Positions 20,188-58,069 of a stretch of DNA of 64,000 nucleotides are shown in pieces. The notes under the pieces were generated by a model, which ran no database searches, had not been told where the DNA came from, and worked only from the letters and a program-made list of their open reading frames with translations. The stretch is from a virus. The translations under genes were made by a program, and so were the position numbers. The stretch's first letter is position 1; each line of letters opens with the position of its first letter. The stretch lies in the IMG/VR virus record IMGVR_UViG_3300036760_000522, positions 237,551 to 301,550 of that record; one strand, written 5' to 3'.

Positions 20188-20207
20188 CCTTCAATTCCCA
20201 ATCGGTT
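20188..20207 (-). promoter_or_regulatory. Recurrent leader element, copy a
   Basis: The minus strand reads ACCGATTGGGAATTGAAGG. It overlaps the stop codon of the 20191-20571 gene and lies about 40 nt before the ATG at 20152. It is one of about nine matches in the window and the only clear one inside the leftward replication module. Confidence 0.5.
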
Positions 20208-20571
20208 CATTGAACAACCCCTGTAAGACACCAAGCACCCGCAAGTAGTACTGCCTGTCGACAACATCCAACAATGGCGGCTGGATTACAGCTTCCGGAT
20301 TGATCCGAATCACATCCGCCTGCGACTTGACTACCAGTTGGCTGAAAGAGTCGTCAACAAGGTAAGGCTCAATCTTGGCCCAGTCCTCAGCCAGAACTTG
20401 TATGTGTTGTCCACCAAACTCCAGGCGAACGTAACTCAAATTGCGAACATGCCCAGTCTTGACAGTGCCCTTCTTCAAAAAGACGGCCATCAAGCCGCGA
20501 GCCAACAGAGGCAGATCAGATTGCCGTAGCCGCACTGGGCGATCGACAATCTTGAAGAGCCGGTTGTCCAT
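20191..20571 (-). CDS. Hypothetical protein
   Basis: This 126-residue protein starting MDNRLFKIVDRPVRLRQSDL has mixed alpha/beta composition with no recognised motif. It lies 6 nt downstream of groEL on the same strand. Its last codons form part of a recurrent upstream element (copy a), so the 3' end is probably under dual constraint. Confidence 0.6.
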   Translation of the reverse strand: MDNRLFKIVDRPVRLRQSDLPLLARGLMAVFLKKGTVKTGHVRNLSYVRLEFGGQHIQVLAEDWAKIEPYLVDDSFSQLVVKSQADVIRINPEAVIQPPLLDVVDRQYYLRVLGVLQGLFNEPIGN

Positions 20572-20577
20572 TGGGTC

Positions 20578-22179
20578 TCACGCCGACGGTGTCGCAGCTG
20601 GCTTAGCGACACGCTTTCGAACAAGGACTTCCGACATCAAACAAGTCGTCGCCACTGAAACTGCGTTCGTCAACGCAGCCCTAACGACTTGTGCAGGGTC
20701 CACAATACCTGCTTCCCAAAAGTCCTTCAACACACCGTCCGTAACGTCCAAGCCGAGAGGATCTGCACTGTCTCGGACTAGAGCAACCGCAACAGAGCCT
20801 GAACCACCAGCGTTCTCGTTGAGTTTGCGTAGAGGAGCTTCACATGCACGTAGGACCAAACGATAACCCAACAGCTGTTCCTCGGTCAGATTCTTATCCG
20901 TCGCATCACACGTCGATGCGGCACGGAGTAATGCGACTCCCCCGCCCAAAACCACACCACCATCAATCGCTGCTCGAACCGCCGAAAGCGCGTCCTCCAT
21001 TCGAGCCTTTCGCTCCTTCATCTCGTACTCGGTAAAGGCCCCCACTTTGATGATGCAAACACCTCCTTGCAAACGACCTACACGTTCGCGCAAACGATCA
21101 GCGTCATACTCCGAGCCGCAACGATCCGCCTCTGAAAGCAACGTCGCGATTCGACTGTCGATCACTTCGGGCTTGCCCTCACCACACAAGATAGTGGTCG
21201 CCTTCGAAGTCACAGTCACACGACTAGCAGATCCGACGTATTGTAAAGGGTCCTTCTCGAAACAGGAGAATGTCATTCCTTGTTGTTTAGAAATGAAAGT
21301 TGCGCCAGTCATGATGGCAAGGTCCTCGAGAGCATCGGATTGAAATATGCCGTGGCTCGGAGCCTTGACCAAGACTGCCTTAAGCTGTCCTGCCTTGAAG
21401 TTCTGCAAGAACAACGGCAGCGCCTCACCTGTGAAATCAGGTGCAAAAACCACCAGTGCACGGTTCTCAGTGATGACTGCATTCAAAAGCGGCAGCAACG
21501 GAAGACAAGCTGAGACACCCCAGTCCGTCACCAAGATGTACGGGTTGTCGTAAACAATATCCGCACCGTCTACAGCGAACTCCGGGTGTGCCCAACCACG
21601 ATCGATTTGAGTACCGTCAACAGTGACAAGTTCAGTCTTAGTCCCTCGCCCCTCTTCGACGTTGACGATTCCGTTCTGTCCAACTTTCACAACGGCTTCG
21701 GCCACCATGTGACCGAGATCGCGATCGCCGTTTGCACACACCGTTGCAATTTTTTCAATGTCTTCTTGATCCGCAACAGATCGTGTTCGCTCTGCAAGTG
21801 ACCAAAGAATCGCTTCCAACGCACAATCCATTCCACGCTTCAGGGACACAGGCGCGGCCCCAGCAACCACCAACGACGCACCGCGTTTACACAAATACTG
21901 GGCCAAGACAATGGAAGTAGTTGTCCCATCCCCGACATCGTCACTGGTTTGTGACGCGACATCCACGAGAAGCCGAGCGCCCATCTCCTCCCACGGATCA
22001 GGTAACGAGATCTCTTTAGCAACCGACACTCCGTCCTTCGTTACCAAAGGTAGGCCGAACGTCTTCTGGAGACAGACCGTTCTACCCCTAGGACCAAGCG
22101 TTACCGCGACAGCTCTCGCCAGCTGGTCAATCCCACTCAACAACTTCGAGCGCGCGTCTGAACCAAAACGAATCGACAT
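20578..22179 (-). CDS. groEL: GroEL-like chaperonin
   Basis: The 533-residue protein starts MSIRFGSDAR at ATG 22179. A GTG at 22194 would add 5 residues. Chaperonin signatures are clear: VAVTLGPRGRTV, TKDGVSVAKEI, DDVGDGTTTS (ATP-binding DGTTT) and GGGVALLRA near the C-terminus. The bacterial GGM tail is missing. It probably folds capsid or other phage proteins. No GroES gene is adjacent, so it either uses host GroES or works without a lid, as reported for some jumbo-phage chaperonins. Confidence 0.95.
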   Translation of the reverse strand: MSIRFGSDARSKLLSGIDQLARAVAVTLGPRGRTVCLQKTFGLPLVTKDGVSVAKEISLPDPWEEMGARLLVDVASQTSDDVGDGTTTSIVLAQYLCKRGASLVVAGAAPVSLKRGMDCALEAILWSLAERTRSVADQEDIEKIATVCANGDRDLGHMVAEAVVKVGQNGIVNVEEGRGTKTELVTVDGTQIDRGWAHPEFAVDGADIVYDNPYILVTDWGVSACLPLLPLLNAVITENRALVVFAPDFTGEALPLFLQNFKAGQLKAVLVKAPSHGIFQSDALEDLAIMTGATFISKQQGMTFSCFEKDPLQYVGSASRVTVTSKATTILCGEGKPEVIDSRIATLLSEADRCGSEYDADRLRERVGRLQGGVCIIKVGAFTEYEMKERKARMEDALSAVRAAIDGGVVLGGGVALLRAASTCDATDKNLTEEQLLGYRLVLRACEAPLRKLNENAGGSGSVAVALVRDSADPLGLDVTDGVLKDFWEAGIVDPAQVVRAALTNAVSVATTCLMSEVLVRKRVAKPAATPSA

Positions 22180-22201
22180 CAGGTCACAGAACACCGGAAC
22201 C

Positions 22202-22420
22202 CTACGTCGAGTCGACGACTTCCCCTTTTAACCACCGACCTGCCAAGGCCAGCTCCACACCATCGTACGACATTTGCACAAGCTGTTCAGGGGGTGGTTT
22301 CATTGTCACAACGTAGGCACGACCCAAGTAGTACTGGTGCGCAACCACATCCTTGAGATCGAGACCACGATAGTACATTGCTAGCTCAGTACCTCCCGAC
22401 AACAAGTAGGTGCGTACCAT
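22202..22420 (-). CDS. Small hypothetical protein upstream of groEL
   Basis: This 72-residue protein (MVRTYLLSGGTELAMYYRGL) has a beta-rich pattern. It occupies the usual groES position but shows no GroES mobile loop or length match (about 95), so it should not be called GroES. Function unknown. Confidence 0.5.
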   Translation of the reverse strand: MVRTYLLSGGTELAMYYRGLDLKDVVAHQYYLGRAYVVTMKPPPEQLVQMSYDGVELALAGRWLKGEVVDST

Positions 22421-22421
22421 C

Positions 22422-23150
22422 TCAAGAAATAAGCGGCGTCACGCTCTCCGCTATGGACACACTATCTGAAGCTTGACGATCAAGTGGCAAAGAACCGATC
22501 ACCGAAGCACCACTTGGAAGAACCACATTGCTCGAAACTTGAACATTCAAGACTTGTCCGTTGTAATCCGAGTAGGGACCAAAACTGCGTCCACCTGAAA
22601 TCAAATTGGAAGCATTGAATGGCGTCCACAATGATTGAGGATCAGTAGTCCACACAGACATCGTGGAGGGGCCGACCAAAAAGCTTGCGAAGCGTGTTCC
22701 AGAAATAGCAGCAGCCGAGTTCCAAAACAATGTCGCAGACACAACCGCCCCCACTTCGAAGATCAAAGGCGCAACGACGTTAGCGACTTCGACACCCGCT
22801 GAATTTCGAATCCGAGCAAACGGTCGATTGTCCGTGGTGAGCCCGATACCCAAATAGTTGACCGGCGCAGAAGGCACGTCCGTCAAGAACGCAACAAAAC
22901 GTTGGACCCCTGGAGAACCCACTACGAAGTTCACCGAAAGGGTGCCACGTGATCCTGCGAAACGACCAAGCAGCGAAAATACGCCAGCACCCTCACGATT
23001 TTCAATCACACCAGGTAAAGCCCGAAACGCTTGATTTGATCCAACCCTAGAGCCAGCCCACGTTGGTGTCGACCAAGGGGTGCCAGGAGAAACCGGCGTT
23101 CCAAGGTCGAATTGTGCTGAGAGACCTGAAGCGTTTTGCAACTGGGACAT
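22422..23150 (-). CDS. LamG/concanavalin-like virion protein candidate
   Basis: The 242-residue protein has an almost all-beta composition rich in S, G, V and T, with a laminin-G/concanavalin-like run (GVFSLLGRFAGSRGTLSVNF). It resembles the N-terminal half of the LamG-PhoD protein at 61118. Such domains occur in phage tail fibres and surface-decorating proteins that bind sugars. There is no signal peptide. The neighbours are small and do not fix the role. Confidence 0.5.
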   Translation of the reverse strand: MSQLQNASGLSAQFDLGTPVSPGTPWSTPTWAGSRVGSNQAFRALPGVIENREGAGVFSLLGRFAGSRGTLSVNFVVGSPGVQRFVAFLTDVPSAPVNYLGIGLTTDNRPFARIRNSAGVEVANVVAPLIFEVGAVVSATLFWNSAAAISGTRFASFLVGPSTMSVWTTDPQSLWTPFNASNLISGGRSFGPYSDYNGQVLNVQVSSNVVLPSGASVIGSLPLDRQASDSVSIAESVTPLIS

Positions 23151-25320: not shown

Positions 25321-26034
25321 CTAGATGTGACGTTGAATCACTTTCTCGATCCGTGGTTGATGTTTTTTCAACCACTGGTGAGGATACGACCGGGCCATAC
25401 CCCACACCTCAGCGAGTTCCTGATCAGTCAGACCATCGAGCTTCGCAAGAAACCACTCTGGCGCACGTTTGTCGATCTTGGACAGGTCATCCAAAATCCC
25501 CTTGACGACATGTCGAGGAAGCAAATTGTCGAGAGCTTGAAAGGTTTCAACATTGTCGACGTCTAAGTCACCACCAATAGCTTCTCGCCGGCTTTCAATG
25601 CTGCGAAAAGCGTCCACTAGGAGATTGTGTGCGATCTTGAAAATGAAAGATTCTGCTTCACGTAGCTCGATGCCAGCTCTCGGCTGAACCCGACCACCCG
25701 ACAGTTTCAACAACAGCTGTGACACGACTTCTTGGACAAGTTCTGGATCCTTTGCCTTCATCAACAACATTTTGTAGAGTCGTTGACCGAAGCTACGTCC
25801 ATAGCCAGAGGGCAGCCGAGTGGGATCGACCTTGGTGCCAAGAGTTACGTTGGGCGGTGGATCCATCACGACGCCGCTATTCAAAAAGAGAGCGTACGTC
25901 GTTCGACCAATCGTGTCAGCCAGATCCGCAGCAAGGACCAGGAAGACCTGAGCGACTCGGTACCCCCACGGCAGTGCTCGGTAAAGCCTAACGCTTACGT
26001 GCGAAGCCCGAGCAACGAGTAGTCGAATCGTCAC
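25321..26034 (-). CDS. Sigma-70-family (ECF-like) factor
   Basis: The 237-residue protein has a region-2-like core (AKDPELVQEVVSQLLLKL, FIFKIAHNLLVDAFRSIESRR, as in ECF sigma 2.1-2.4) and a C-terminal helix-turn-helix (LTDQELAEVWGMARSYPHQWLKKH) as in region 4. GTG 26034 lies 2 nt after the stop of the second sigma-like gene. An internal ATG at 25866 (MDPPPNV) would remove an odd hydrophobic leader and may be the true start. It probably redirects host RNA polymerase to phage promoters such as the recurrent elements of the right half. Confidence 0.75.
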   Translation of the reverse strand: MTIRLLVARASHVSVRLYRALPWGYRVAQVFLVLAADLADTIGRTTYALFLNSGVVMDPPPNVTLGTKVDPTRLPSGYGRSFGQRLYKMLLMKAKDPELVQEVVSQLLLKLSGGRVQPRAGIELREAESFIFKIAHNLLVDAFRSIESRREAIGGDLDVDNVETFQALDNLLPRHVVKGILDDLSKIDKRAPEWFLAKLDGLTDQELAEVWGMARSYPHQWLKKHQPRIEKVIQRHI

Positions 26035-26036: not shown

Positions 26037-27224
26037 CTACCGGAAGGATACAACAAGATCCTCAAGTCGTTCGCATCCAACGCGGTTCCGGACCTCTTCG
26101 ATAGCAGAGAGGTAGACATCCGACGGAATGTCCTCTCTGTCCGCAAATTGTTGGTCCCACGACGAAGAGGAGTCTTCAAGGCGTGTTTCGTGTACCCCCT
26201 GATCTGTCAACACAACCAACGCATCCCCTGACAACGGTCGCTCTTTGTGACGGCGATCCCGTGTACGAAAAACGTTCTTCAGGTGATTTATCACAGCTCG
26301 TGACAGGTAGCTCTTGAAACCTTGAATGATCGTGTTGTCCTGCTTCGCCACCCAAAGAGGCGCTTTGGGATTGAAGTCTCGGACAAAATATGAAGACTTG
26401 GCAAGCGTCTCAATGTCGGCCACCAAGTAACGGGCTTTCAAAGAAAAGAGACGTCCCTCTACCGGACGCGGGATCCAATACGTTGAATCCCGTTTCGACT
26501 TCCAGAGAGCCTGACGCCACTGGACCCGAGTGATTGACAGCGCAGAAAGGATCTCGGCGACGCCAACCGTCCTGCTTGGCCTAACCTTGATAGCGTCGAC
26601 GTAGCGATCCAGGAATTTAGCACTCAAGAGGCGGCACCAGACGTCCTGCACAAATTCATTCAGTGCCTCTCCACACGCCCGAGTCATCTTGGCCACCAAC
26701 GACTTGACGAACCCTCCATACGACGAAACCACCTGAGTATTGTTCTTAGGAAGCCCGGAGGGCCACTTCCAGACCAGAAACAGTCTGATCCTCACGTGGC
26801 GGCAAAAAGCCTCGAGAACGGCTCCTGGTAAGATCCGTGCGTTCCTAGGAAGCCTTAAGAGGTGTATCCGACTTTCGATTCGAACGATGTCTGGTCCCCA
26901 ATAGACGGTTTGTCTCGAACAGAGCTTCACCCCCTCAACGAGATTGGGTTGGACCTCAACCCAATCAGGGTCCCGCAGAGTCATTTGAGTCAATCGAAAC
27001 CACTGGTGTGGCGACAGCCCCAGGTAGTTGATCGTTTCGGTGTGTGACATGGCACGTGGAAGGTGACGAGAAGAGTCGAAACGCTCCAAGGTCTGAAGCC
27101 GTTCAAGCTCGCTGATCAAGTAATCAAGCGAGCAACCTATCCTGCGTGCCTCTTCTTCTAACCAACCACCATGTAGAGCCTTCAGTTCCGAGTAGTTTTG
27201 TGGGATCCCAGCCAAACAGTTCAT
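26037..27224 (-). CDS. Divergent sigma-factor-like protein
   Basis: The protein has 395 residues from ATG 27224. A TTG at 27263 is in frame. Between about 200 and 330 it shows a split region-2 pattern: EALNEFVQDVWCRLLS, then after an insertion FKSYLSRAVINHLKNVFRTRDRRHKE, the helix that melts DNA in sigma 2.3-2.4. An N-terminal HTH-like segment (YLGLSPHQWFRLTQ) is also present. It is the first gene of the leftward module and sits directly upstream of the ECF-like gene, so the two probably form a transcription cascade. Family assignment is moderate. Confidence 0.5.
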   Translation of the reverse strand: MNCLAGIPQNYSELKALHGGWLEEEARRIGCSLDYLISELERLQTLERFDSSRHLPRAMSHTETINYLGLSPHQWFRLTQMTLRDPDWVEVQPNLVEGVKLCSRQTVYWGPDIVRIESRIHLLRLPRNARILPGAVLEAFCRHVRIRLFLVWKWPSGLPKNNTQVVSSYGGFVKSLVAKMTRACGEALNEFVQDVWCRLLSAKFLDRYVDAIKVRPSRTVGVAEILSALSITRVQWRQALWKSKRDSTYWIPRPVEGRLFSLKARYLVADIETLAKSSYFVRDFNPKAPLWVAKQDNTIIQGFKSYLSRAVINHLKNVFRTRDRRHKERPLSGDALVVLTDQGVHETRLEDSSSSWDQQFADREDIPSDVYLSAIEEVRNRVGCERLEDLVVSFR

Positions 27225-27280
27225 TCGAAAATTCCCTGAGAGCAAGAGCTCGGAGTTGTGCAACCCGACAGAGTTTCCGA

Positions 27281-27427: not shown

Positions 27428-27946
27428 ATGCCTACAAGCCCAAGTGAATCAAAGTTCGAGTTAGCTCAGCGAGAACTAGTTCAAGCAGCTCAGAACAAAC
27501 TCTTCACCACACAGGTGGACACACCTGTGTTCTCGATCCCCTCGACGCCTCACGATCAGAAGGTCTTCGGGCTGCTCGCCAAAGCTTGGATCCTTTGGGC
27601 AACAGGCTCTGACCCTCTTCCCACCATCGACAAAATAGGAAAACCCCACGAGGCGGGTAGAGCACTTCACCTCATGGCTCTCGATCATTGGAAACGAGCC
27701 ATTCAAGCCTTGGCTCGTTCATCTCTTCAGTTCCCGATCAACCAGGACGCTCTATCGTCCAATCAGGAAGCTTTCCTGTGCTTCCAGCGGGCTCTTCTGC
27801 TTAGTTCAAGCTATCAGCTACCTTCCACCAACAGCATCCATTGGTCGTTTGTTGCCTCCTTTCCTACACTTGCGATCAGCTACCTTACACACACTCTCTC
27901 TTCTTCACCACCCAAGTCTGTCTCTCCATCCATGAGAGGTCATTGA
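27428..27946 (+). CDS. Hypothetical protein next to the origin-like region
   Basis: This frame encodes 172 residues from ATG 27428, which has an AGGTGAG ribosome site. An earlier ATG at 27374 is possible. The first 130 residues look protein-like (FELAQRELVQAAQNKLF, VFGLLAKAWILWAT). The last 40 are S/P-rich and less convincing. The DNA carries several inverted repeats, including 9-bp arms at 27509-27530, and a TTGTCCACA near-match to a DnaA box lies just upstream at 27381. Coding status is uncertain. Confidence 0.4.
   Translation: MPTSPSESKFELAQRELVQAAQNKLFTTQVDTPVFSIPSTPHDQKVFGLLAKAWILWATGSDPLPTIDKIGKPHEAGRALHLMALDHWKRAIQALARSSLQFPINQDALSSNQEAFLCFQRALLLSSSYQLPSTNSIHWSFVASFPTLAISYLTHTLSSSPPKSVSPSMRGH
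27509..27530. repeat. Perfect inverted repeat, 9-bp arms
   Basis: ACACAGGTG and CACCTGTGT are separated by GACA. This is one of a series of dyads between 27.5 and 28.96 kb. Confidence 0.8.
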
Positions 27947-30865: not shown

Positions 30866-30931
30866 GGCAAAGTCAGTAAAAGATCCAGGGATAACTAGCC
30901 TATTTGGTTCATAGGCGGAGCCTTGGATCCC

Positions 30932-30953
30932 TGCTAGGTTGGGCTTTCCGTCG
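30932..30953 (+). repeat. 22-bp direct repeat, copy 1
   Basis: Starts TGCTAGGTTGGGCTTTCCGT. It is identical over 22 bp to 34264-34285, and each copy is followed 10-15 nt later by CGGAGAAATTGAAA. This copy precedes the candidate small-RNA promoter by about 30 nt. Confidence 0.75.
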
Positions 30954-30980
30954 TCTCAGGATGGCGGAGAAATTGAAATG

Positions 30981-31110: not shown

Positions 31111-31130
31111 GATCGACTGGGAATTGAATG
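31111..31130 (+). promoter_or_regulatory. Recurrent leader element, copy b
   Basis: GATCGACTGGGAATTGAATG lies just after the small RNA. No obvious plus-strand gene follows, so this copy may be fortuitous or belong to the RNA unit. Confidence 0.35.
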
Positions 31131-31734: not shown

Positions 31735-31764
31735 GTGGTGTTGTAGTATATTGGGAATTGAAGG
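31735..31764 (+). promoter_or_regulatory. Recurrent leader element, copy c (extended)
   Basis: Contains GTAGTATATTGGGAATTGAA and lies 44 nt upstream of the RRM gene. Thirty bases are identical to copy g at 49075-49104 on the other strand. Confidence 0.6.
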
Positions 31765-31807: not shown

Positions 31808-32161
31808 ATGAAGCGATTGTTTGTTGGAAACCTGTCTTACGCGACTAGCGTGGACGAATTCAGGACTCTTTTCACACGATTCGGCACACTACGTTCTGTG
31901 GACATCGTCACTGATCGTGAGACCGGCCAAAGCCGCGGTTTCGGGTTCGCAGAGTTCACAACTGATCAAGCCGCCGAAGACTGTGCGACGTCTCTGCACA
32001 AGTCCAATTTCGGCGGTCGGCCCATCATTGTTCAGGAAGCTGTCCAGAAGCCAAGGACTCGGAAAGAATTTTCGCAACCGCCGCCAGACCCAGAAGTGCA
32101 TCGTCGCCCACAACGTCGGGATCACCGACGTGATCGGCCGAGCCGGGATTACAACGATTGA
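31808..32161 (+). CDS. RRM-type RNA-binding protein
   Basis: The 117-residue protein from ATG 31808 consists of one RNA-recognition motif with RNP2 LFVGNL (4-9) and RNP1 RGFGFAEF (43-50), followed by a basic, disordered tail (RRPQRRDHRRDRPSRDYND). It resembles bacterial Rbp-type glycine/arginine-tailed RRM proteins. It probably binds single-stranded RNA and could steer phage or host mRNA translation or stability. It is preceded by an extended copy of the recurrent leader element. Confidence 0.9.
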   Translation: MKRLFVGNLSYATSVDEFRTLFTRFGTLRSVDIVTDRETGQSRGFGFAEFTTDQAAEDCATSLHKSNFGGRPIIVQEAVQKPRTRKEFSQPPPDPEVHRRPQRRDHRRDRPSRDYND

Positions 32162-34206: not shown

Positions 34207-34263
34207 TCTCGTGTCTTTCCTCTTTCCTTTTCAATGTTCCTTCTCGCGATGCAAGGCGCCTTC

Positions 34264-34285
34264 TGCTAGGTTGGGCTTTCCGTCG
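34264..34285 (+). repeat. 22-bp direct repeat, copy 2
   Basis: Identical to 30932-30953 and followed by CGGAGAAATTGAAA at 34301-34314. This copy overlaps the 3' end of the zinc protein gene. A looser relative (GGATGGCGAATAAATTGAAA) is near 63016. Confidence 0.75.
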
Positions 34286-34288
34286 CCT

Positions 34289-34651
34289 TCATTGGGTGGT
34301 CGGAGAAATTGAAACCAACTTCCCCAACACCTTTGCGTATTCGCCGAACAGGAGCGCACGCTTGTACAATTTCCAACACTTGCGACAGATGAAAGGCTGG
34401 CAGGTTTCCGTGTCAAGTACGAAACGGTGATCGTGTCCGCCCCGACCGTGACCCTTAACACCGGTCTTCTTGCTAATCTTGCCTTTCGGGTGTGGTGTCC
34501 CTTTCGGCAGGAGTTTTCCGCACAGGCTGGGGCTGTCGATTGCGTCCTCACAGCCGTTCTTCTCAGCCAACTTGAGCTCTGTTCCAACGAGGAGCCGAAT
34601 GTGCCACGTACCCGAGCTGTACCGTGATTCACAGAAAGCATATTGAGACAT
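34289..34651 (-). CDS. Zinc-binding hypothetical protein
   Basis: The 120-residue protein from ATG 34651 (MSQYAFCESRYSSGTWHIRL) contains histidine/glycine-rich (KGHGRGGHDHRF) and CRKCW segments that together could bind zinc. A C-terminal helix follows. It resembles a common phage small zinc-finger layout but I cannot name the family. Confidence 0.5.
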   Translation of the reverse strand: MSQYAFCESRYSSGTWHIRLLVGTELKLAEKNGCEDAIDSPSLCGKLLPKGTPHPKGKISKKTGVKGHGRGGHDHRFVLDTETCQPFICRKCWKLYKRALLFGEYAKVLGKLVSISPTTQ

Positions 34652-34734
34652 TTTGGACAGAGAAGCGTTACAATGTGAAACGGACCAAAAAAGCACTCGA
34701 TTTTTAGGCCTCGCAATTCGTAGTAACAGGTAAC

Positions 34735-36638: not shown

Positions 36639-37207
36639 CGACTCCCCAGCAACTGGAAAAGCGAGCCGCGTTTCTGACTCACAAACACGGAATCCCATCA
36701 CTCGGCGTCACAGGTTCTTACCACGACGCACCGCTCCGTCGGGTCGAATTTGTCTTACATGAGGGAGCTCACTGGATAACACTAGGTTACACGACGGTGC
36801 CATCCAGAGCCACACAGAAGACCTCGGAGCTGTTTGAGCGAATGACACCGACGACAGCGGACTCGTTGGAAATCGACACCGCTTTCGTAACCTATCTCGC
36901 AGGTTGTGCGCTCAATTTGTGGTACGATCCAATGCCCATCATCGATTCAGCCTGCCGAAATCTGGTATGCCACAACACCTTGGCTGCGACAGCGACCGGA
37001 AGTCGCGCAGTCGTCATTGAGGCCTGGAAAAGACAGGTCTTGAGCCGTACCGCTCGAAGACGCCTGCGTGACATGACAGTCCGCCTTGTGTTGTGGTTCT
37101 CTCCGAGGTCAAAGCCGCTCACCAAGCTACCGACCTGGATCGGCAGTACACCATTGTGGGCTGACGACCGCGCTGTGAAGCTACCGTTCTGGATGGATCC
37201 TAGTTAG
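36635..37207 (+). CDS. HExxH-containing hypothetical protein
   Basis: The 190-residue protein has HEGAH inside VEFVLHEGAHWITLG, matching HExxH zinc sites. A possible third ligand is less clear (SLEIDTAFVTYLAG). The C-terminal half is basic. It may be a small metallopeptidase-like protein. It overlaps the upstream gene by 4 nt. Confidence 0.5.
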   Translation: MTTPQQLEKRAAFLTHKHGIPSLGVTGSYHDAPLRRVEFVLHEGAHWITLGYTTVPSRATQKTSELFERMTPTTADSLEIDTAFVTYLAGCALNLWYDPMPIIDSACRNLVCHNTLAATATGSRAVVIEAWKRQVLSRTARRRLRDMTVRLVLWFSPRSKPLTKLPTWIGSTPLWADDRAVKLPFWMDPS

Positions 37208-37471
37208 TCTAGGGATCGGCAACTCCAGATGGTGCGCACGCGGCTCAGCAAGTTGGGCAGCTTTGTCGAGGTGAAGGGCGTAGACCTCCATGATCCGTGT
37301 GAACTCTTTACCTCGTATCTCACTGAGTTTCCAACGCACGTCTACGCCAGGCATTACGTACGTAGGCGCATCTTCGAAGTCAAAAGTGTCGCACACCACA
37401 ATCATGTGGGTTGCACCTTTCCGAACGCCCTCGTCGAACCAACCACTGATGTCTTGGGTGCTCGCTGCCAC
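37181..37471 (-). CDS. Small hypothetical protein
   Basis: The 96-residue alpha/beta protein begins at GTG 37471 (MAASTQDISGWFDEGVRKGA). The start is fixed by a GAGGTGAGG ribosome site that merges with a copy of the recurrent element. HMIVVCDTFDFEDAPTYVM is a conserved-looking strand-loop. No family named. Confidence 0.6.
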   Translation of the reverse strand: MAASTQDISGWFDEGVRKGATHMIVVCDTFDFEDAPTYVMPGVDVRWKLSEIRGKEFTRIMEVYALHLDKAAQLAEPRAHHLELPIPRLTRIHPER

Positions 37472-37480
37472 AGTCCCTCA

Positions 37481-37499
37481 CCTCAATTCCCAATCGATT
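37481..37499 (-). promoter_or_regulatory. Recurrent leader element, copy d
   Basis: The minus strand reads AATCGATTGGGAATTGAGG and runs into the ribosome site 10 nt before GTG 37471. A GGCAGGGATC block lies just upstream. Confidence 0.6.
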
Positions 37500-37652
37500 T
37501 CTGATCCCTGCCTCGGAGGGCTCACAAGTCTCGTGTGTCGATCCACCACGAGATCAAAAACTGGACCATACGCTCTCGGTTGGGACCAGTTTTTATCTTG
37601 ATAGTGCCGACGATCATAGGATCCGGAATCTGGGGTGGCGGACCGGGCGGAG

Positions 37653-38069
37653 CTATACCAATCTGTCCTGAACGCGCGGGCCCGCTTGGACAGCGTCTCG
37701 AACCTTCACGTAGAACGTGACGCGACGCTTCCCCAGATCTGCTTGGCGTTGCCAACCAGCGGTTCGAATCTTCATTTTCTTGGCTGTAGCCAAATTGGTT
37801 TGGGCCTCTTCAGCGCGAGCAGCCTCAGCCTGGATCTTGCGTTCTGCCCAAGCGAGCAGTTCGCTTTGTGCCTGTACCATCTCGCCGGGGTTCCGTGCGA
37901 GAACCACCACGTCTTCGGTGATCGCTAGTTCCGGAACACGGTCCTCCGTGTCGACTTCCGGTGTCGGCTCCGATGCTGCCGCGATGACGGGATCCTGGTG
38001 CTCCACCAGCGAAGAAGGGACATCCGGTGTTTCTGGTTCTGTGGCCATCCCCGCAAAATACCAGATCAT
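37653..38069 (-). CDS. Phage-type basic helical protein
   Basis: The protein has 138 residues from ATG 38069, placed by the leader element directly upstream. After an acidic N-terminal half it has a helical, alanine-rich segment (ERKIQAEAARAEEAQTNLAT) and a basic end (KKMKIRTAGWQRQADLGKRR, then VTFYVKVRDAVQAG). I have seen this C-terminal pattern in phage ORFans, where it usually continues further, so the reading frame here may be shortened. Function unknown. Confidence 0.6.
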   Translation of the reverse strand: MIWYFAGMATEPETPDVPSSLVEHQDPVIAAASEPTPEVDTEDRVPELAITEDVVVLARNPGEMVQAQSELLAWAERKIQAEAARAEEAQTNLATAKKMKIRTAGWQRQADLGKRRVTFYVKVRDAVQAGPRVQDRLV

Positions 38070-38075: not shown

Positions 38076-38109
38076 GTCTTCAATGCCCAATCGGTCCGAC
38101 CCCTACCGG
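38076..38109 (-). promoter_or_regulatory. Recurrent leader element, copy e
   Basis: The minus strand has GGTAGGGGTCGG, then ACCGATTGGGCATTGAAGAC, ending 6 nt before ATG 38069. It closely matches copy i at 58036. Confidence 0.65.
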
Positions 38110-40618: not shown

Positions 40619-40824
40619 GGCTCTTGATCCTCAGGATCCTCAGGATCCTCTGCGGTAGAGATCGGATTGACGGGTAATTGAAGGGCTTCGGCGCGAAGCA
40701 CAAGGTACGAACGAGGCGCAACGATTCCGATTTTTACGGAACTACGGTGAAGCTCCGTAATTTCCAAGACGATGTCGTCTCCGATCAGGATTTTCTGGCC
40801 CTTGCGCCTTGAGATAATCAACAT
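40615..40824 (-). CDS. csrA: CsrA-like translational regulator
   Basis: The 69-residue protein begins MLIISRRKGQKILIGDDIVL and continues SSVKIGIVAPRSYLVLRAEA, a near-standard CsrA (strand 1 and strand 5 RNA-binding residues present). The tail is EDPEDPEDQEP, from 9-bp DNA repeats. CsrA dimers bind GGA motifs in mRNA leaders and block translation. A phage copy could repress host genes or time its own. Confidence 0.9.
   Translation of the reverse strand: MLIISRRKGQKILIGDDIVLEITELHRSSVKIGIVAPRSYLVLRAEALQLPVNPISTAEDPEDPEDQEP
40625..40649. repeat. Tandem 9-bp repeats in csrA tail
   Basis: About three GATCCTCAG units encode the EDP repeats. Confidence 0.8.
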
Positions 40825-41688: not shown

Positions 41689-41981
41689 GACACTGTCTGA
41701 CTGCGGACAACTTCGGCTTCGTCCGCAGTAGCGTGCATACTTGGGACAACTTGACGGAAGTCGTCACAGATTGCAACAGGCCGGTAGTCGGAGGTGAATA
41801 CGTGCCCGTCGACCAATTTCGCCAAAGTCACGGCCTCTAGCAAAACGAGGCCGGTGCGCTCAAACTTGCCACTTTCCAACATCACTAGGTAGGTCATGTT
41901 GTTTACTACGAATCCAGAGGCCTCGGAATCGAGTACTTTCTTGACACATACGGGCGTCGATGCGAAATGGGTCAAACGCAT
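41685..41981 (-). CDS. Small hypothetical protein with start overlapping a divergent gene
   Basis: The 98-residue beta-rich protein (MRLTHFASTPVCVKKVLDSE) has an ATG at 41981-41979 sharing CATG with the divergent plus-strand start at 41980. No promoter fits between them. Its promoter would lie within the opposing gene. Function unknown. Confidence 0.5.
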   Translation of the reverse strand: MRLTHFASTPVCVKKVLDSEASGFVVNNMTYLVMLESGKFERTGLVLLEAVTLAKLVDGHVFTSDYRPVAICDDFRQVVPSMHATADEAEVVRSQTVS

Positions 41982-43971: not shown

Positions 43972-44445
43972 TCACAAAGCCTCAGCGATTTCACGGAGCT
44001 TGTCGGCCTTGTCCTTCGGGCTGCGTTTTTCACATACTTGCCAATACAAGATGGATCCGTTGCACAAACGCTCCGCTGTTTGACGGACTTGTGATGGAAC
44101 GCGACCAGCTCCGAACACGTGCTCTAGTATACCCCACAACGTGCGCTGCAACACTACGGCTGTTTCGTTGAGCTGTTGTATTGAGACACTTTCCCCATTT
44201 TCGATTAGTCTCTCGACTGCATTCACCGCCTTCAAAATCTTCTTGCGATAATTCGGATTGTAAGGAATTGTGCGGACAGCCTGCGCTAGACGCTCCACTT
44301 CCTCTTGTGTGACGTCCTCCGGCAGCTTGAACGAAATGCGGAGATCTGGTCTTAGCCAGAACTTGTGTAGGATCTCGCCAGTGCCGGGTTTGACGGCGTC
44401 TGCAACCGGTTCTGTGGACACGACTTTCAATTCTTCCTCTGACAT
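43972..44445 (-). CDS. Hypothetical protein
   Basis: The 157-residue protein (MSEEELKVVSTEPVADAVKP) has a helical C-terminal two-thirds (AERLCNGSILYWQVCEKRSP). No family recognised. It is 18 nt from the next gene and ends a compact run of five small minus-strand genes. Confidence 0.55.
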   Translation of the reverse strand: MSEEELKVVSTEPVADAVKPGTGEILHKFWLRPDLRISFKLPEDVTQEEVERLAQAVRTIPYNPNYRKKILKAVNAVERLIENGESVSIQQLNETAVVLQRTLWGILEHVFGAGRVPSQVRQTAERLCNGSILYWQVCEKRSPKDKADKLREIAEAL

Positions 44446-45129: not shown

Positions 45130-45154
45130 GTGGTTGTCTACTGGGAACTGAAGG
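45130..45154 (+). promoter_or_regulatory. Recurrent leader element, copy f
   Basis: GTGGTTGTCTACTGGGAACT then GAAGG lies 28 nt upstream of the GTG start at 45183, opening a rightward gene pair. Confidence 0.5.
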
Positions 45155-45182: not shown

Positions 45183-45536
45183 GTGACCAAGATTTGCGAG
45201 ATCGACCAAACCGAGTGGGAGGCGTGGGTAGCTGGGCGCCCGCCAGAAGTGAGAAATCTCTGTCGGACATTTCCTCCTGACCGTCTTTATCGGATGAAGT
45301 CCGGTCACCGGGTGACGATTTGTAGTTATTCAGAAAACGGGACAATGATGGTGGATGTGCGGGGTGAATACAACAAAATCACATTCGAGCGAACTGTCTT
45401 TGGCGTGAAGCCAGAGGACCTCGAAGAGTGTGAGCTTCCTGGAGAAGGGGAAGAACTCGGCGCAATGCTCACAGAGCCAAAAGAAATCGAAAACCTCCTT
45501 GACGGGATGCGTGAACACATGAAAGATCAACAATGA
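45183..45536 (+). CDS. Hypothetical acidic protein
   Basis: This 117-residue protein from GTG 45183 (MTKICEIDQTEWEAWVAGRP) has a beta-rich core (MKSGHRVTICSYSENGTMMV) and an acidic tail. No family recognised. It overlaps the following gene by ATGA. Confidence 0.55.
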   Translation: MTKICEIDQTEWEAWVAGRPPEVRNLCRTFPPDRLYRMKSGHRVTICSYSENGTMMVDVRGEYNKITFERTVFGVKPEDLEECELPGEGEELGAMLTEPKEIENLLDGMREHMKDQQ

Positions 45537-45924: not shown

Positions 45925-45985
45925 GGCTTGGAGGGCCATCAGGCAGCAGATTTGACAATCCGTGAATCGGGATAACACTTAGTTG

Positions 45986-47839
45986 ATGTTATTTAAGTAC
46001 CCGTCTCTGGTTTCAGTTGTCCTGCTCCTAGCCTGTAGCGATCACCAAGATTCGGTTGGACCTGTTGGCCGTGTCACACAGGCTGTAAGTTACGTTTCTG
46101 ATTCACTAAATTGCGGTGCCAGCGGCTACCAATGTAAAGGCGGTCGCACCTGTCAGACTGGCCATTGTACCCCGGTTTGGATCCCCATGTCGACCGTCGG
46201 CGCACCCGCGCCTCGGTTTGCCGCAGCTGCAACAGCCTACGAAGGGAAGTACCTGGTTGCAGGTGGCTGCACGAGTTACGACCTAAATGCGCCGGCAGAA
46301 ATTACGGCGTCAATTTACGATCCCGCGACTGATACGTGGTCTGAATTTCCGTCGTTCGACATTGAAGACAGGCGTAATCTGTCCGTGTTGTTTACGGTTC
46401 CGGACGGACTGTATTCTCTCGGCGGTGAAACACAATGCCGGCATGCCGGCATCTCCTCCTATCATACACTGGTGAAGTACGACCCGATTGGTTTGAAATG
46501 GGACCGACTCCCGTACGAAGAAGACACCATCAACGCAGGCTACAACAAGTCGATTACTGTCATTCCAGGGACCAATGAGATTTTTATCTATGGTGGTGGA
46601 GGAGGCAATGGTCCGGCCTGGTGGTATGCAGATCGCGGAAGTTTCCCTCTTCTCGAAGACACATGGCTGAGCTGGACACATCCCGGTTGCCCACTTTCCG
46701 GATGCATACGCGGAGGGGCTTTTACGACCTTCTACGACGCAGGCTTCATCCGTGTCATGGGAGGAGATCCTACCTACGGAACAGCGCCCGCAGGTTTGTC
46801 ATTCGAACTTGCAACCAGCACTTGGTCAAACTGGACGGTACCAGCCGGGACCCCGGACTTCCAAAACGACTTTTCAAACTACTCCAACACAGCTCCGACG
46901 GGTGTCGACACCGGCACGCGACTCATGTACGTCTCGGAGACGGGGAACGTCGCCATTTACGATCGCGCCTTAGGCACGTGGTCGACGGATGTTACCGCGC
47001 CGCCTAGCGGCTTCTGTGCGGGCGGATCAGCCGCTTACGTGGACGGTGAACTCGTCGTGTACTCCGGAAGCTGTGACGGCGTTCTAGCGTCCGTTGGTGC
47101 GCGCTATCAGGCGCCAGCTCCGGGATTGGCGTTCACACCAACGGTGTCAGTTACAAGCACAAGTACGACATTCACTGTCGGAGAGGTGACCCGACTCGTC
47201 ACCTTCAATGATCCATTTGGGATCGATGAGACTGAAGTCACGGCTGCGCAATACCAGGAATGTGTCACGGCTTCTTCTTGCACGGCTGCTGCGACCGGTG
47301 GCGCATGCACAAGCGGAGTCTCGGGTCTTGAACAACACCCAATCAACTGTGTCACTTACGCACAGTCCGGGGCTTACTGCTCTTGGGCCGGTAAGCGACT
47401 GCCGACCCAGCAAGAGTGGGAATACGCCGCTAGGCACAACGACCCGACCACCCACAAGTACCCTTGGGGCAACAGCACGGCGGATTACAACACGAAGTGC
47501 AACTTCTCCGTCACAACCGACGGCTACGTCGCCACAGCCCCAGTAGGCAGCTTCCCTGCTGGAAACAGCGCCCTTGGCCTCCAAGACATGGCGGGCAACG
47601 TCTGGGAGTGGACCTCGAGCCCAGCCTGCTTCAACGAAACCGGGGATTGTACGAATTGCCCGGCCGGTGGTTGTGCAAGTGCTTGCGACGTTTGCGGCAG
47701 CCCAGATCGTGTCTTCAAAGGCGGAGGTTTCACACACGCGCTTGCCTACACGCGTTCGGCATTTCGCTCTTACAACGACCCAAGCTACTCGACAGACATC
47801 CTCGGTTTTCGTTGCGCCAAGAACACCGTTGTTCCCTAG
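45986..47839 (+). CDS. Lipoprotein with Kelch-like repeats and FGE/sulfatase-modifying domain
   Basis: The 617-residue protein has a lipoprotein signal (VVLLLAC, C17 lipid-anchored). A short Cys-rich EGF-like stretch (SLNCGASGYQCKGGRTCQTG) follows, then Kelch-like beta-propeller segments (YLVAGGCTSYD, GLYSLGGET, EIFIYGGGGG) to about 385. The C-terminal FGE-sulfatase domain runs through GKRLPTQQEWEYAARH, MAGNVWEWT, FKGGGFTHA and GFRCAK. Such surface proteins are widespread in Myxococcota and most such domains are not true formylglycine enzymes. It would face the periplasm or outside. Very unlike its small phage neighbours, and inverted repeats bracket it, so it is probably acquired cargo. Confidence 0.85.
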   Translation: MLFKYPSLVSVVLLLACSDHQDSVGPVGRVTQAVSYVSDSLNCGASGYQCKGGRTCQTGHCTPVWIPMSTVGAPAPRFAAAATAYEGKYLVAGGCTSYDLNAPAEITASIYDPATDTWSEFPSFDIEDRRNLSVLFTVPDGLYSLGGETQCRHAGISSYHTLVKYDPIGLKWDRLPYEEDTINAGYNKSITVIPGTNEIFIYGGGGGNGPAWWYADRGSFPLLEDTWLSWTHPGCPLSGCIRGGAFTTFYDAGFIRVMGGDPTYGTAPAGLSFELATSTWSNWTVPAGTPDFQNDFSNYSNTAPTGVDTGTRLMYVSETGNVAIYDRALGTWSTDVTAPPSGFCAGGSAAYVDGELVVYSGSCDGVLASVGARYQAPAPGLAFTPTVSVTSTSTTFTVGEVTRLVTFNDPFGIDETEVTAAQYQECVTASSCTAAATGGACTSGVSGLEQHPINCVTYAQSGAYCSWAGKRLPTQQEWEYAARHNDPTTHKYPWGNSTADYNTKCNFSVTTDGYVATAPVGSFPAGNSALGLQDMAGNVWEWTSSPACFNETGDCTNCPAGGCASACDVCGSPDRVFKGGGFTHALAYTRSAFRSYNDPSYSTDILGFRCAKNTVVP

Positions 47840-48435: not shown

Positions 48436-48996
48436 TTACGGCTTCGAAGTGGACTTCCCTTTCAAGTTCTGTACGCGTGTGATTTCCTCAGCCGTATGTG
48501 GCGTCCCGCCTGCGTTGATCCCCAGGTACAGATCGAGTACTTCGTCGCGAGTCTCCAAGGAACAAACGCGCCATTTGAAAGTGTGAGACAACGTGCGAAG
48601 CTTACCTGTGAATTCCTTGTAACGATGACCAAAGACCCTGAGGTCGTTTCGCAAGAATTTACGTACTGCTTCGAGTCGTTGCTTGCCGTCAACAATGGTA
48701 TACGGTCCTCGGTAATCCCGGCCCCAACCAGGGCAGTTGAAGGTGAGATTCCTTCCGACTTCGCCGCCTCGTAAGGCGTACTCGACGTAGGCGACTTGTT
48801 GCGCTTCCGTCCAAACATGCGCACGCTGGAAGTCCGGCTCAAGATCAAGAGGGGCCACCCTCTCTTCAGTCTGGTGCTGGATGTGTTCCTCGAGGTAAGT
48901 CCAAAAGACGTCGATTTCGTAATGCGCGTGCGGAAATTGGGGGATGTCGTTGAAGTCCATTCCCTTTTCACTTGCGGCTTGCGGCTTGTTGGTCAT
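48436..48996 (-). CDS. DUF262-type protein (ParB/GmrSD N-terminal-like)
   Basis: The 186-residue protein has the DUF262 signature. LEPDFQRAHVWTEAQQVAYV, ALRGGEVGRNLTFNCPGW, then YTIVDGKQRLEAVRKFLRND, where the IVDGxQRL motif is the NTP-binding/ParB-like hallmark. In GmrSD-type enzymes this domain hydrolyses NTP to license DNA cleavage. The HNH DUF1524 half is absent here, so it may be a decoy, antitoxin-like or regulatory protein. Copy g of the leader element lies about 80 nt upstream. Confidence 0.8.
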   Translation of the reverse strand: MTNKPQAASEKGMDFNDIPQFPHAHYEIDVFWTYLEEHIQHQTEERVAPLDLEPDFQRAHVWTEAQQVAYVEYALRGGEVGRNLTFNCPGWGRDYRGPYTIVDGKQRLEAVRKFLRNDLRVFGHRYKEFTGKLRTLSHTFKWRVCSLETRDEVLDLYLGINAGGTPHTAEEITRVQNLKGKSTSKP

Positions 48997-49074
48997 TTGC
49001 AGCCTACTACGAATCCGGGTGCCTAAAAATCGAGGGTTGTTTCGGGACTGCGACAGATTGCTCTTTTCTGGTTT

Positions 49075-49104
49075 CCTTCAATTCCCAATATACTACAACA
49101 CCAC
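49075..49104 (-). promoter_or_regulatory. Recurrent leader element, copy g (extended)
   Basis: On the minus strand the 30 bases equal copy c (31735-31764). It lies between the divergent genes at 48996 and 49119. Confidence 0.6.
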
Positions 49105-55168: not shown

Positions 55169-55177
55169 TCAGCGCTT

Positions 55178-55561: not shown

Positions 55562-55573
55562 GTGACGAGTATA

Positions 55574-55888
55574 TCAGATCTGAGAGTACGCTGTACGAAG
55601 CCTGCGACACGCTGAATCCCCTGGCTTGACCGCCTGCCGGCAAACGTCTGGACGCTTCGCGTAGACAGAACATCGAACGCTCTTGAGTACCGTCCCCTTC
55701 AGGGCGACACAAGCGGTGACCTCGTGCCCCTTTAAGGGACCCGCCTTCTGTTCGCGCACCACAGCCCGTAGGGCTCCGTAGAGAGGCCTCCCGTCGATTG
55801 CTCTGGAGAAGGCCTCCAAAGGCCCTGGGTAGAGCACGTGGAGCCGTACGAACCGCTTTTCAAGCCTCTTCTCGTCCTCTCTCAACAT
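55574..55888 (-). CDS. YkgJ-like Cys-cluster protein
   Basis: The 104-residue protein ends with SVRCSVYAKRPDVCRQAVKP, GDSACRRLR, resembling the RPxxC(R) cluster of YkgJ/UPF0153 proteins, which bind zinc or iron. The N-terminal CxxC of the family is replaced by a single cysteine (VTACVALKG). Role unknown. Confidence 0.6.
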   Translation of the reverse strand: MLREDEKRLEKRFVRLHVLYPGPLEAFSRAIDGRPLYGALRAVVREQKAGPLKGHEVTACVALKGTVLKSVRCSVYAKRPDVCRQAVKPGDSACRRLRTAYSQI

Positions 55889-55929
55889 CTGACGGTTTCA
55901 AGATTCTACTCTTACTTGTGAGCTTTCTT

Positions 55930-56118
55930 TCATCCCTCTGGAATACTGCGTAAGTACGATTCACGGCCCAAGCTCAGGAACAAGAGCAGCGCGAGCAGCT
56001 CCTCACCTGAAGGCACGTCCCAATCGTGTGTGCAGTAGGGCTGATTCTCATCCAAGTCAAACAAGGTCCTTCCCCCGAACATTTTGAGCTCGGGGGGGTT
56101 GGTCCTGGACGTCAACAT
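55930..56118 (-). CDS. Small hypothetical protein
   Basis: 62 residues (MLTSRTNPPELKMFGGRTLF) with a leucine-rich end. No motif. Moderately supported by strand context only. Confidence 0.35.
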   Translation of the reverse strand: MLTSRTNPPELKMFGGRTLFDLDENQPYCTHDWDVPSGEELLALLLFLSLGRESYLRSIPEG

Positions 56119-56191
56119 GTAACGGTGCCCTGTGTCGGTGATACAACACCGCCACCGATGATTCCTAGCAACACCAGTACTTGATAAAAAT

Positions 56192-56593
56192 TCACAGCTT
56201 AGCCCCTCCGATTCGTGAGAGATAATCGACGTGATCTAGTGTCTCTTCGACTTGCCGACCAGTCAATGACCACGGCTCGTTTTGTGGAAGCCGCGCGATG
56301 CAGGCCCATTTGAACGATTGGTGCAGTTGCACAGCACGTACATCATCCTTGAGGTAGTCGGCGAGAATGGCCAGAGCAAGTTGTGCTGGTCCGGATCCTC
56401 CATACCCCCACTCGAAACCTGTCGGGCTGTGATTGACAAGATCGAGACGCAATGGCAATGAGCTTCCGTCAACTCGTCTCACTTGACACGTCTGATCTTC
56501 GTCACGTGTGCCGGTGTACAGGCAGCCCTCAGCCATTCTCTTGCGCACCCCTGCCGCGAACTCTTCTGGGAAACCCCCAACTTCTTCTTCCAT
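56192..56593 (-). CDS. DUF6166-like protein
   Basis: The 133-residue protein includes GFEWGYGGSGPAQLALAILA and the following LHQSFKW, matching the DUF6166 signature found in phages and bacteria. Function unknown. The ATG at 56593 follows a recurrent leader element by a few bases. Confidence 0.75.
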   Translation of the reverse strand: MEEEVGGFPEEFAAGVRKRMAEGCLYTGTRDEDQTCQVRRVDGSSLPLRLDLVNHSPTGFEWGYGGSGPAQLALAILADYLKDDVRAVQLHQSFKWACIARLPQNEPWSLTGRQVEETLDHVDYLSRIGGAKL

Positions 56594-56596
56594 TAC

Positions 56597-56628
56597 CCTT
56601 CAACTCCAATCAACTCGATCCCTACCAC
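56597..56628 (-). promoter_or_regulatory. Recurrent leader element, copy h
   Basis: On the minus strand GTGGTAGGGATC, then a GATTGGAGTTGAAGGG block ending 3 nt before ATG 56593. It also lies at the 3' end of the upstream gene. Confidence 0.55.
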
Positions 56629-56924
56629 GGTCTTGACCACAGCTGGTGATCGATTTCGCCGTCGTCAGAGACTTCGAACCCGTGCGCCTTCAGCCACGGA
56701 TCGTCAAATTCAACTTCCCCAGATCTTTTCTTGTACTTGTAGGGGATCCGAGCTGCCTTGAGATAAACTCGAACGTCGTCACTAAAAGGTGGAGGTTTAC
56801 CTGTGATGGTGGCGACTAGACCGCGGATCTGTCCCTTGAGACCGACCAGGAACTCGCCATTGCACTGATTGAGCTGCTGACACCTTGCGACGATCAAGGC
56901 CTTGACGTCTTCCTCGCTCATCAT
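56622..56924 (-). CDS. Hypothetical protein
   Basis: The 100-residue protein (MMSEEDVKALIVARCQQLNQ) is helical in its first half. The end contains GEVEFDDPWLKAHGFEVSDD. No family recognised. Confidence 0.5.
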   Translation of the reverse strand: MMSEEDVKALIVARCQQLNQCNGEFLVGLKGQIRGLVATITGKPPPFSDDVRVYLKAARIPYKYKKRSGEVEFDDPWLKAHGFEVSDDGEIDHQLWSRPW

Positions 56925-57041
56925 GTGCGCCCTGCTTTCCCTCGGTTCCTGTTTCAGATTACACCGCTATGCGGGCCGGGGATCTCTTCACAGTACACCA
57001 GCTCTTGCCAACCTGTCAAATCGCGTAGTAGCGTCGGAGCG

Positions 57042-57329
57042 ATGGAAACCAAAAAGAAGGCGCCTCGAAAATGGGCCGAACCGCGCTTCAGAGGCTTCGG
57101 AGAGACCGAATTAAGTGAAACCGATCTCGAGATGCATTACCCTGAGTACCAACTACAAATGTTGGACTTGAGGAAGGCACTCTTCATCGCAGCAAGCCAG
57201 GCTATGCTTACGCGTACCGCCGGGGTAGGTCCTTCTTCTGTGTCTCTAAAAGCAGCAAAAGCTGCACATGAATACGCCCAGACGGCGACTAAATTTTGGA
57301 GTGAGCAGGAGTACGACGACCGTGACTGA
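57042..57329 (+). CDS. Hypothetical protein
   Basis: The 95-residue protein from ATG 57042 (METKKKAPRKWAEPRFRGFG) has a basic start and helical rest (AAKAAHEYAQTATKFW). It overlaps the next gene by GTGA-type coupling. Confidence 0.55.
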   Translation: METKKKAPRKWAEPRFRGFGETELSETDLEMHYPEYQLQMLDLRKALFIAASQAMLTRTAGVGPSSVSLKAAKAAHEYAQTATKFWSEQEYDDRD

Positions 57330-57636
57330 CAGAATTCGAACCCTGACCGTCGTACTCGATGCCGACTATCGAGATGACGATCTCGAATCACTCCTCACAG
57401 CAATCAAGATGGTTCGAGGTGTCGATGATGTTCAATTTGGTGAAGTCGTCAATTACAAGGACTGGATAGCCCGTCGTGCAGTGAAGACTGAACTCCAGCA
57501 CGAACTGCTCAAAGCAATCAACGGCGTGTTCGAAGAAAAGGCTTGGATAGCCCGTCGTGCAGTGAAGACTGAACTCCAGCACGAACTGCTCAAAGCAATC
57601 AACGGCGTGTTCGAAGAAAAGGCTCGAAGCTTGTGA
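57322..57636 (+). CDS. Hypothetical protein with exact internal duplication
   Basis: The 104-residue protein from GTG 57322 begins MTDRIRTLTVVLDADYRDDD, followed by a segment (VVNYKD) and two identical 27-residue repeats (WIARRAVKTELQHELLKAIN...). Without the duplication it would be 77 residues. The N-terminal part resembles a small ferredoxin-like fold. No function known. Confidence 0.6.
   Translation: MTDRIRTLTVVLDADYRDDDLESLLTAIKMVRGVDDVQFGEVVNYKDWIARRAVKTELQHELLKAINGVFEEKAWIARRAVKTELQHELLKAINGVFEEKARSL
57463..57624. repeat. Perfect 81-bp tandem duplication
   Basis: 57463-57543 and 57544-57624 are identical base for base, in frame, within a gene. A recent event. Confidence 0.95.
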
Positions 57637-58034
57637 GCAAGCCAACAACCGTGCTCCTCGACTACGAGCTGCCTTGCTTGGCTGAAATCCTCGCTTGGGA
57701 ACATGCTCCCAAATTCATACTCACGATCTGGGTAAAACCTAACGTCCGAGAGTTGGTCTACCGTGGGGCTCCGCACACCTGCGTGACGATGACGCCAGAA
57801 GAAGTCGTGAACTCTCCGACGTGGACCGTGTTCATCTCGCCCGATTTCGACTTGGTCAGGTCTTGGCACAAATCGGTTGCGTGGCCAAGATATCGGCCTC
57901 CATCAAATGGCATTTGGCTCCGCCCCGAAGGCCCTGAGATTGACACTTGGCCCAATTGCATCAATGCGCCAAGCTTTGATGTTCGATTGAAGTCTCGACT
58001 GCTGCACGAGCTCGAGGTACGAGATAAGCTGTGA
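57633..58034 (+). CDS. Hypothetical protein
   Basis: 133 residues from GTG 57633 (MSKPTTVLLDYELPCLAEIL), alpha/beta with WTVFISPDFDLVRSWHKSVA. No family recognised. Start overlaps the upstream stop. Confidence 0.55.
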   Translation: MSKPTTVLLDYELPCLAEILAWEHAPKFILTIWVKPNVRELVYRGAPHTCVTMTPEEVVNSPTWTVFISPDFDLVRSWHKSVAWPRYRPPSNGIWLRPEGPEIDTWPNCINAPSFDVRLKSRLLHELEVRDKL

Positions 58035-58035
58035 C

Positions 58036-58069
58036 GTGGTAGTGATTAGACCGATTGGGAATTGAAGAC
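58036..58069 (+). promoter_or_regulatory. Recurrent leader element, copy i
   Basis: GTGGTAGTGATTAG, then ACCGATTGGGAATTGAAGAC ends 7 nt before the Tad2-like ATG at 58076. One of the best matches; nearly superimposes on copy e. Confidence 0.65.

Follow-up and report, generated by a model that had tools for sequence, protein, structure and literature searches.

A recurrent 16-bp core marks a putative mobile 5'-regulatory cassette that turns over quickly between two close phages

Bacterial putative mobile promoters and REP/MITE-type repeats are short sequences that turn up ahead of unrelated genes and are present in some relatives but not in others. T7/SP6-type promoters, which serve single-subunit phage polymerases, form a single uninterrupted block that is strongly conserved and has purines at its end. 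PeSLs are reportedly early-promoter/stem-loop cassettes of T4-like phages, said to have been described by Arbiol in 2010 and Comeau in 2014. According to a published account, PeSLs are small repeated regulatory cassettes located between phage genes and tied to shuffling where small accessory genes lie (PMC4503421). In jumbo phages with their own multisubunit RNA polymerases, the early promoter motifs are AT-rich, approximately 10 nt long and centred near -10 (PMC7598289). Here we describe a recurrent 16-bp core, GAYTGGGAAYTGAAGG, in a 64,000-nt window that comprises bases 237551-301550 (21%) of the 301.5-kb phage record IMGVR_UViG_3300036760_000522 (G000). The sequence comparisons suggest, with about an even chance in our judgement, that this repeat is a small mobile 5'-regulatory cassette of the phage lineage, most likely a promoter.

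The repeat is confirmed as real. The core has 12 matches in the window at up to 3 mismatches, compared with 1.54 +/- 1.23 (maximum 5) in 100 dinucleotide shuffles, and when words are counted without bias, fragments of GATTGGGAATTGAAGG top the list of over-represented 9- to 12-mers for 18-62 kb of the window. Trained on 13 copies, a sequence-only model returns 11 in the window, all with E <= 1.3e-5, the next best match having E = 2; since all 11 belong to the training set, the independent evidence consists of the shuffle comparison and the word counts. The initial annotation had listed nine copies. All of them exist, although several coordinates were off by a few to 17 nt (31735, 45130 and 58036 become 31749, 45139 and 58053) and the copies at 27725(-) and 40669(+) had been overlooked. 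It had also proposed a motif search over the whole genome. On the entire record, the model finds the 11 window copies and five more matches elsewhere, and a further core match lies at record 120611, also present in the relative G001 (IMGVR_UViG_3300037424_001177, 159 kb). An exact match at record 63607 was discounted as a coding coincidence, for it reads I-D-W-E-L-K in frame, like chance matches in unrelated contigs, and the match at record 174904 is weak. Consequently, approximately 15 non-coding copies remain in the record, 11 of them inside the window (binomial P ~2e-5).

The logo, calculated from 18 copies with orthologous pairs counted once, defines the core as 16 contiguous positions, G-A-Y-T-G-G-G-A-A-Y-T-G-A-A-G-G, of about 1.6 bits each, and conservation drops on both sides. 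Its two variable positions are both T/C. The copy at 45139 carries three changes, that at 56597 is one base shorter, and those at 38077 and 58053 read GAAGA instead of GAAGG. An upstream block, (G)GTAGRGATC, usually starts 14 nt before the core. The second block that had been noted 10-17 nt ahead of several copies is thus present, but it is a minority feature, clear in five of the 11 window copies (37481, 38078, 40669, 56597 and 58053). It is also clear at record 124923, record 161979 and G001:151607, and absent or displaced at the other copies; each of its positions holds <=0.5 bit in the logo. The copies at 31749 and 49075 instead carry TGTGATGTGGTGTTGTAGTA in front of the core; the two agree at 35 of 36 nt through the last base of GAAGG, with no match beyond. 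This 36-nt unit ends exactly at GAAGG, which indicates that the right cassette edge usually coincides with the end of the core. The hairpin signal around the core has a mean z of -0.64 (standard error 0.26), as against -0.10 at random sites. A shared upstream hairpin, convincing by eye at several copies (for example TGATCC...GGATCA at the tRNA-linked copy, record 124923), was dropped for its weak excess over shuffles. The complement of the core was noticed to resemble tRNA T-loops (TTCAATTCCC).

The placement of the copies was judged on genes predicted with a simple codon-model gene caller. Ten of the 11 window copies are intergenic. A called same-strand start lies within 100 nt of six of them, compared with 1.9 expected for random intergenic sites (P 0.005), and two more face genes missed by the caller, namely the RRM gene at 31808 and a gene at 58076 (PHROG E 7e-12). 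In total, 8/11 window copies have a start codon on their own strand 3-78 nt ahead of them, and the distance falls to 0 nt at record 140412. Four copies had been described as lying 3-10 nt before a start codon, and the distances are indeed 8, 7, 3 and 7 nt at 37481, 38078, 56597 and 58053, respectively. Genes farther from the core mostly carry a Shine-Dalgarno sequence of their own, such as AAAGGAGGATCGTCATG at G001:151607 and ACAGGAG at G001:132582, which argues against the core as a ribosome site. The usual ribosome site of the phage is GTGAGGA-like. The copies at 38077, 31749 and 49075 sit in divergent intergenic regions, and one copy follows a terminator-like hairpin ahead of tRNAs.

Table 1. 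Positions of core copies, upstream boxes and associated features (window coordinates unless a prefix is given)
Feature	Position	Strand	Context
Core	20188..20203	-	35 nt before ATG of gene 19937-20152(-); the gene carries a separate GTGAGGAC site; also in G001
Core, diverged	27724..27739	-	~460 nt before two sigma-like genes; also in G001
Core	31115..31130	+	no same-strand gene close downstream; also in G001
Core	31749..31764	+	43 nt before RRM-protein gene 31808-32161(+); absent in G001; 36 nt in common with 49075
Core	37480..37495	-	8 nt before GTG of gene 37181-37471(-)
Box GGCAGGGATC	37503..37512	-	upstream of core 37480
Core	38077..38092	-	7 nt before ATG of gene 37653-38069(-); divergent intergenic region
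Box GGTAGGGGTC	38098..38107	-	upstream of core 38077
Core, diverged, with box	40669..40684	+	inside called minus-strand open reading frame; no same-strand gene close downstream
Box GGTAGAGATC	40654..40663	+	upstream of core 40669
Core, diverged	45139..45154	+	28 nt before GTG of gene 45183-45536(+)
Core	49075..49090	-	78 nt before ATG of gene 48436-48996(-); separate repeated block 49005-49034 between
Core, one base short	56597..56611	-	3 nt before ATG of gene 56192-56593(-)
Box GGTAGGGATC	56617..56626	-	upstream of core 56597; contains stop codon of gene 56622-56924(-)
Core	58053..58068	+	7 nt before ATG of gene 58076-58570(+)
Box GGTAGTGATT	58038..58047	+	upstream of core 58053
ECF-like sigma factor gene	25321..26034	-	SigZ model E 3e-8, well below curated cut-off; candidate partner only
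Weakly sigma-like gene	26037..27263	-	TIGR02937 E 7e-4; Pfam region 2 E 0.009; candidate partner only
tRNA-Glu(CTC) remnant, 67 nt	L038:7855-7921; record 124855-124921	-	5' acceptor strand lost to element
Class III copy	30931-30978	+	
Class III copy	34263-34314	+	
Class III copy	L038:3160	-	
Class III copy	L040:17270	+	
Class III copy	L044 ~3000	-	
Class III copy	L045:9182	-	
Class III copy	L046:3125	-	

The notable result of the comparison with G001 is the rapid turnover of the element between phages this closely related. This relative is colinear with G000 in reverse and ~85-96% identical over long blocks, and selected stretches of the record were compared. Among viral contigs, the box-plus-core pattern was found only in G001. 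The core is absent from the more distant contigs G002-G004 and G014-G018, and core-only matches elsewhere are single, mostly in-frame D-W-E-L-K and chance-like. Both phages carry the core at four of 12 comparable sites (window 20188, 27724 and 31115; record 120611). At the other eight, it is present in only one phage within conserved flanks, in G000 at window 31749 and record 124923, 140412 and 161979, and in G001 at 44296, 62253, 132582 and 151607. Locally unconserved 15-mers make up 17.7% of the intergenic 15-mers in the aligned stretches. Against this background, 8/12 corresponds to a binomial P of ~2e-4, a rough value because sites pooled from either genome favour polymorphic ones; for the G000 sites alone, 4/8 are polymorphic (P 0.04). 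The rewiring of phage transcription during gene shuffling has mostly been inferred from distant comparisons, whereas here two close relatives display filled and empty cassette sites.

The resemblance to PeSLs, as described in the account cited above, is that of a small repeated intergenic phage cassette, situated in a region of small accessory genes and gained or lost between relatives (8/12 sites here). The PeSL of that account combines a host-type early promoter with a stem-loop terminator, whereas the present core is not of the sigma-70 type and a stem-loop does not appear to be a consistent part. In further contrast to that description, single cassettes appear or vanish here between close phages while the neighbouring gene remains unmoved. 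We do not claim that the element is a PeSL, as a sigma-70-type early promoter was not found in it.

The clearest of these events appears to have broken a tRNA gene. G001 possesses an intact 76-nt tRNA-Glu(CTC) beginning with GTCCCAT, while at record 124923 of G000 the same flanks enclose a stretch of ~54 nt, ending in GTAGGGATCAGATCGATTGGGAATTGAAGG, that replaces the 5' acceptor strand. The simplest reading is that the element arrived at this site and broke tRNA-Glu. At G001:132582, two copies of GTAGTAAGA, a sequence that is single in G000, form a 9-bp direct repeat around an insert of 31 bp whose last bases are GAAGG. An insertion of ~63 bp is observed at G001:151607. The difference is confined to ~20 nt around the core, with matching flanks on either side, at G001:62253 and record 140412. 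Judged by eye on pairwise alignments, the right edge falls within 0-1 nt of GAAGG at 62253, 124923, 132582 and 140412, and possibly also at 44296. Its distance from GAAGG is 3-8 nt at 151607 and 161979 and reaches 43 nt at 31749. The left edges are scattered over ~3 to 50 nt upstream.

With a right edge that is mostly constant, a left edge that shifts and direct repeats of differing length, the pattern resembles end-defined insertion. On a conservative view, the cassettes would move by short-homology recombination and be selected for promoter gain. It is improbable, in our estimate, that the core and a second family, the class III repeats (ending in GGAKAAATTGAAAC; both have AATTGAA near the right end), share one dedicated moving mechanism. 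Such a mechanism would keep the right end fixed and the left end free, leaving direct repeats of variable length or small deletions, and would mean that new gene switches are pasted ahead of phage genes. A search found no reverse transcriptase in the phage, with a positive signal in the control; a host enzyme could still serve. Unlike REP/MITE-type repeats, the element shows no inverted ends or fixed target duplication, no transposase was found, and only the right edge looks defined.

Promoter function is suggested by the orientation of the copies, their variable distance from start codons, their positions between divergent genes and the tRNA-linked copy. Furthermore, small genes in mixed orientation need many starts, which fits the concentration of copies among them. 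The initial annotation had offered a promoter or a translation leader with GAAGG as the ribosome site. The promoter half is favoured by placement upstream of genes and the tRNA block, by variable spacing and by the downstream Shine-Dalgarno sequences, and the ribosome-site half is unsupported. The putative cassette would consist of the 16-bp core, in many cases preceded by GTAGRGATC at 14 nt; its units would span ~20-65 bp and mostly stop on the right where the core stops, and transcription would start in or next to the core. The gene units served would be short, consisting of many small genes without assigned function and that of the RRM protein; the sigma-like genes and some of the tRNA block may also be included. 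Should the core be a promoter, the polymorphic sites provide a ready list of gained and lost units; if it is not, they document a phage mini-mobile element.

As for the enzyme, the two sigma-like genes of Table 1 are adjacent to each other and downstream of the copy at 27725, and a third protein with sigma region 4 is encoded elsewhere in the phage, near record 230.4-231.1 kb. A plausible candidate pairing is that host polymerase together with one phage sigma-like protein would read the core. An assignment of GGAACT inside the core as an ECF -35 element was rejected, as the start would fall inside genes whose start codon is 0-8 nt away. Like the early motifs of jumbo phages, the core is conserved, upstream of presumed early operons and concentrated in a small-gene region (PMC7598289). 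It differs from them in being a 16-nt G-rich block, and a polymerase subunit was not found in the genome. The AATT-GAAGG of the core recalls the SP6 start; unlike in T7/SP6 systems, a PF00940 polymerase was not found, in a search whose control was silent.

Several observations weigh against a promoter. The copies at 31115, 40669 and record 120611 have no same-strand gene nearby and that at 27725 is ~460 nt from one, so that three or four of the ~15 record copies face no gene nearby. The copy linked to the tRNA is proof that the element inserted there but not that it has a function. The motif is not of the sigma-70 type, as had been stated from the outset: sigma-70-like matches on the region occur near shuffle level, and a single one overlaps a copy, that at 49075. 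The genome has no match to the multisubunit (phiKZ-type) polymerase beta subunit, using a model that detects it in 9 control bacteria, although a very diverged subunit could escape; nor has it a match to the single-subunit (T7-type) polymerase model PF00940, which was equally silent in the control. The comparison rests on one close relative, and the four cores present in both phages show no clear excess of conservation over the adjacent sequence (~4 changes/64 positions).

Two other explanations are credible alternatives. The core may be a transcribed 5'-leader, serving as an mRNA stabiliser, a translation enhancer or the target of an RNA-binding regulator such as the RRM protein, with the GTAG box as part of the promoter. 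The box lies about where a -10 element would sit if RNA began at the core, a G in a pairing RNA would tolerate either base at the two T/C positions, and one copy precedes the RRM gene itself. We nevertheless consider a leader rather unlikely, as many cores lack the box, start codons follow at varying distances, one copy is linked to a tRNA and a clear RNA-structure signal around the core was not found. Similarly doubtful is a selfish mini-element whose right end, GAAGG, is defined and which an unrecognised enzyme inserts; it would be found near genes mainly as in-gene insertions are lost, with regulation secondary. Such an element would explain the four sites with right edges <=1 nt from GAAGG and variable left edges, the destroyed tRNA gene and the direct repeats of 9 bp at G001:132582 and of 10 and 18 bp around class III repeats. 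The lack of extra conservation in the core and the copies that face no gene are also in its favour. However, the strong orientation toward starts is unexpected for neutral insertion, reverse transcriptase, terminal inverted repeats and a fixed target duplication were all not found, and three sites have displaced edges, two of them by 3-8 nt and one by 43 nt.

A ribosome-binding leader with GAAGG as the Shine-Dalgarno sequence is suggested by the four window copies 3-8 nt ahead of a start codon, but is very improbable. The spacing of 0-78 nt already contradicts it, GAAGG abuts ATG with zero spacer at record 140412, and the start-adjacent copies at 38077 and 58053 carry GAAGA. In addition, separate AGGAG/AAGGAGG sites follow several cores, the usual site of the phage is different, and one copy is linked to a tRNA. 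Solitary CRISPR-like repeats (of the RNA anti-CRISPR type) or another known structured RNA are extremely improbable, for although the tails ...GGGAATTGAAGG of the core and ...GGAGAAATTGAAAC of class III recall the 3' handles of some CRISPR repeats, even a permissive search gave no Rfam match, a consistent hairpin was not found and copies stand directly ahead of start codons.

The class III repeats have the form CTGCTARGTTG..TTTCCGTCGTCTTC..GGAKAAATTGAAAC, and their presence also differs between the two phages. In G001, direct repeats border two of the copies, with a length of 10 bp (CATGGCGTCA) in one case and 18 bp (TACGACAACATTTTCGAG) in the other. Another repeated block, CTCGATTTTNAGGCCTCNNNATTCGTAGTA, is located just upstream of start codons at 34696-34725(+), 41904-41933(-) and 49005-49034(-) and at L038:14502-14531(+). 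Three copies occur in the window versus 0 expected by chance, two copies are kept in G001, and the block may represent another promoter class.

Several neighbouring genes were noted. The RRM-type RNA-binding protein is encoded at 31808-32161(+) (Pfam RRM_1 E 7e-19), and to our knowledge such proteins are uncommon in phages. A tandem 81-nt duplication at 57457-57618(+), 98% identical and a multiple of 3 in length, overlaps a called gene. A phage GroEL-like chaperonin gene is located at 20578-22179(-) (PHROG 5725, E 1e-125), and the product of the gene at 45983-47839(+) combines a sulfatase-modifying-factor (FGE) domain with kelch-like repeats.

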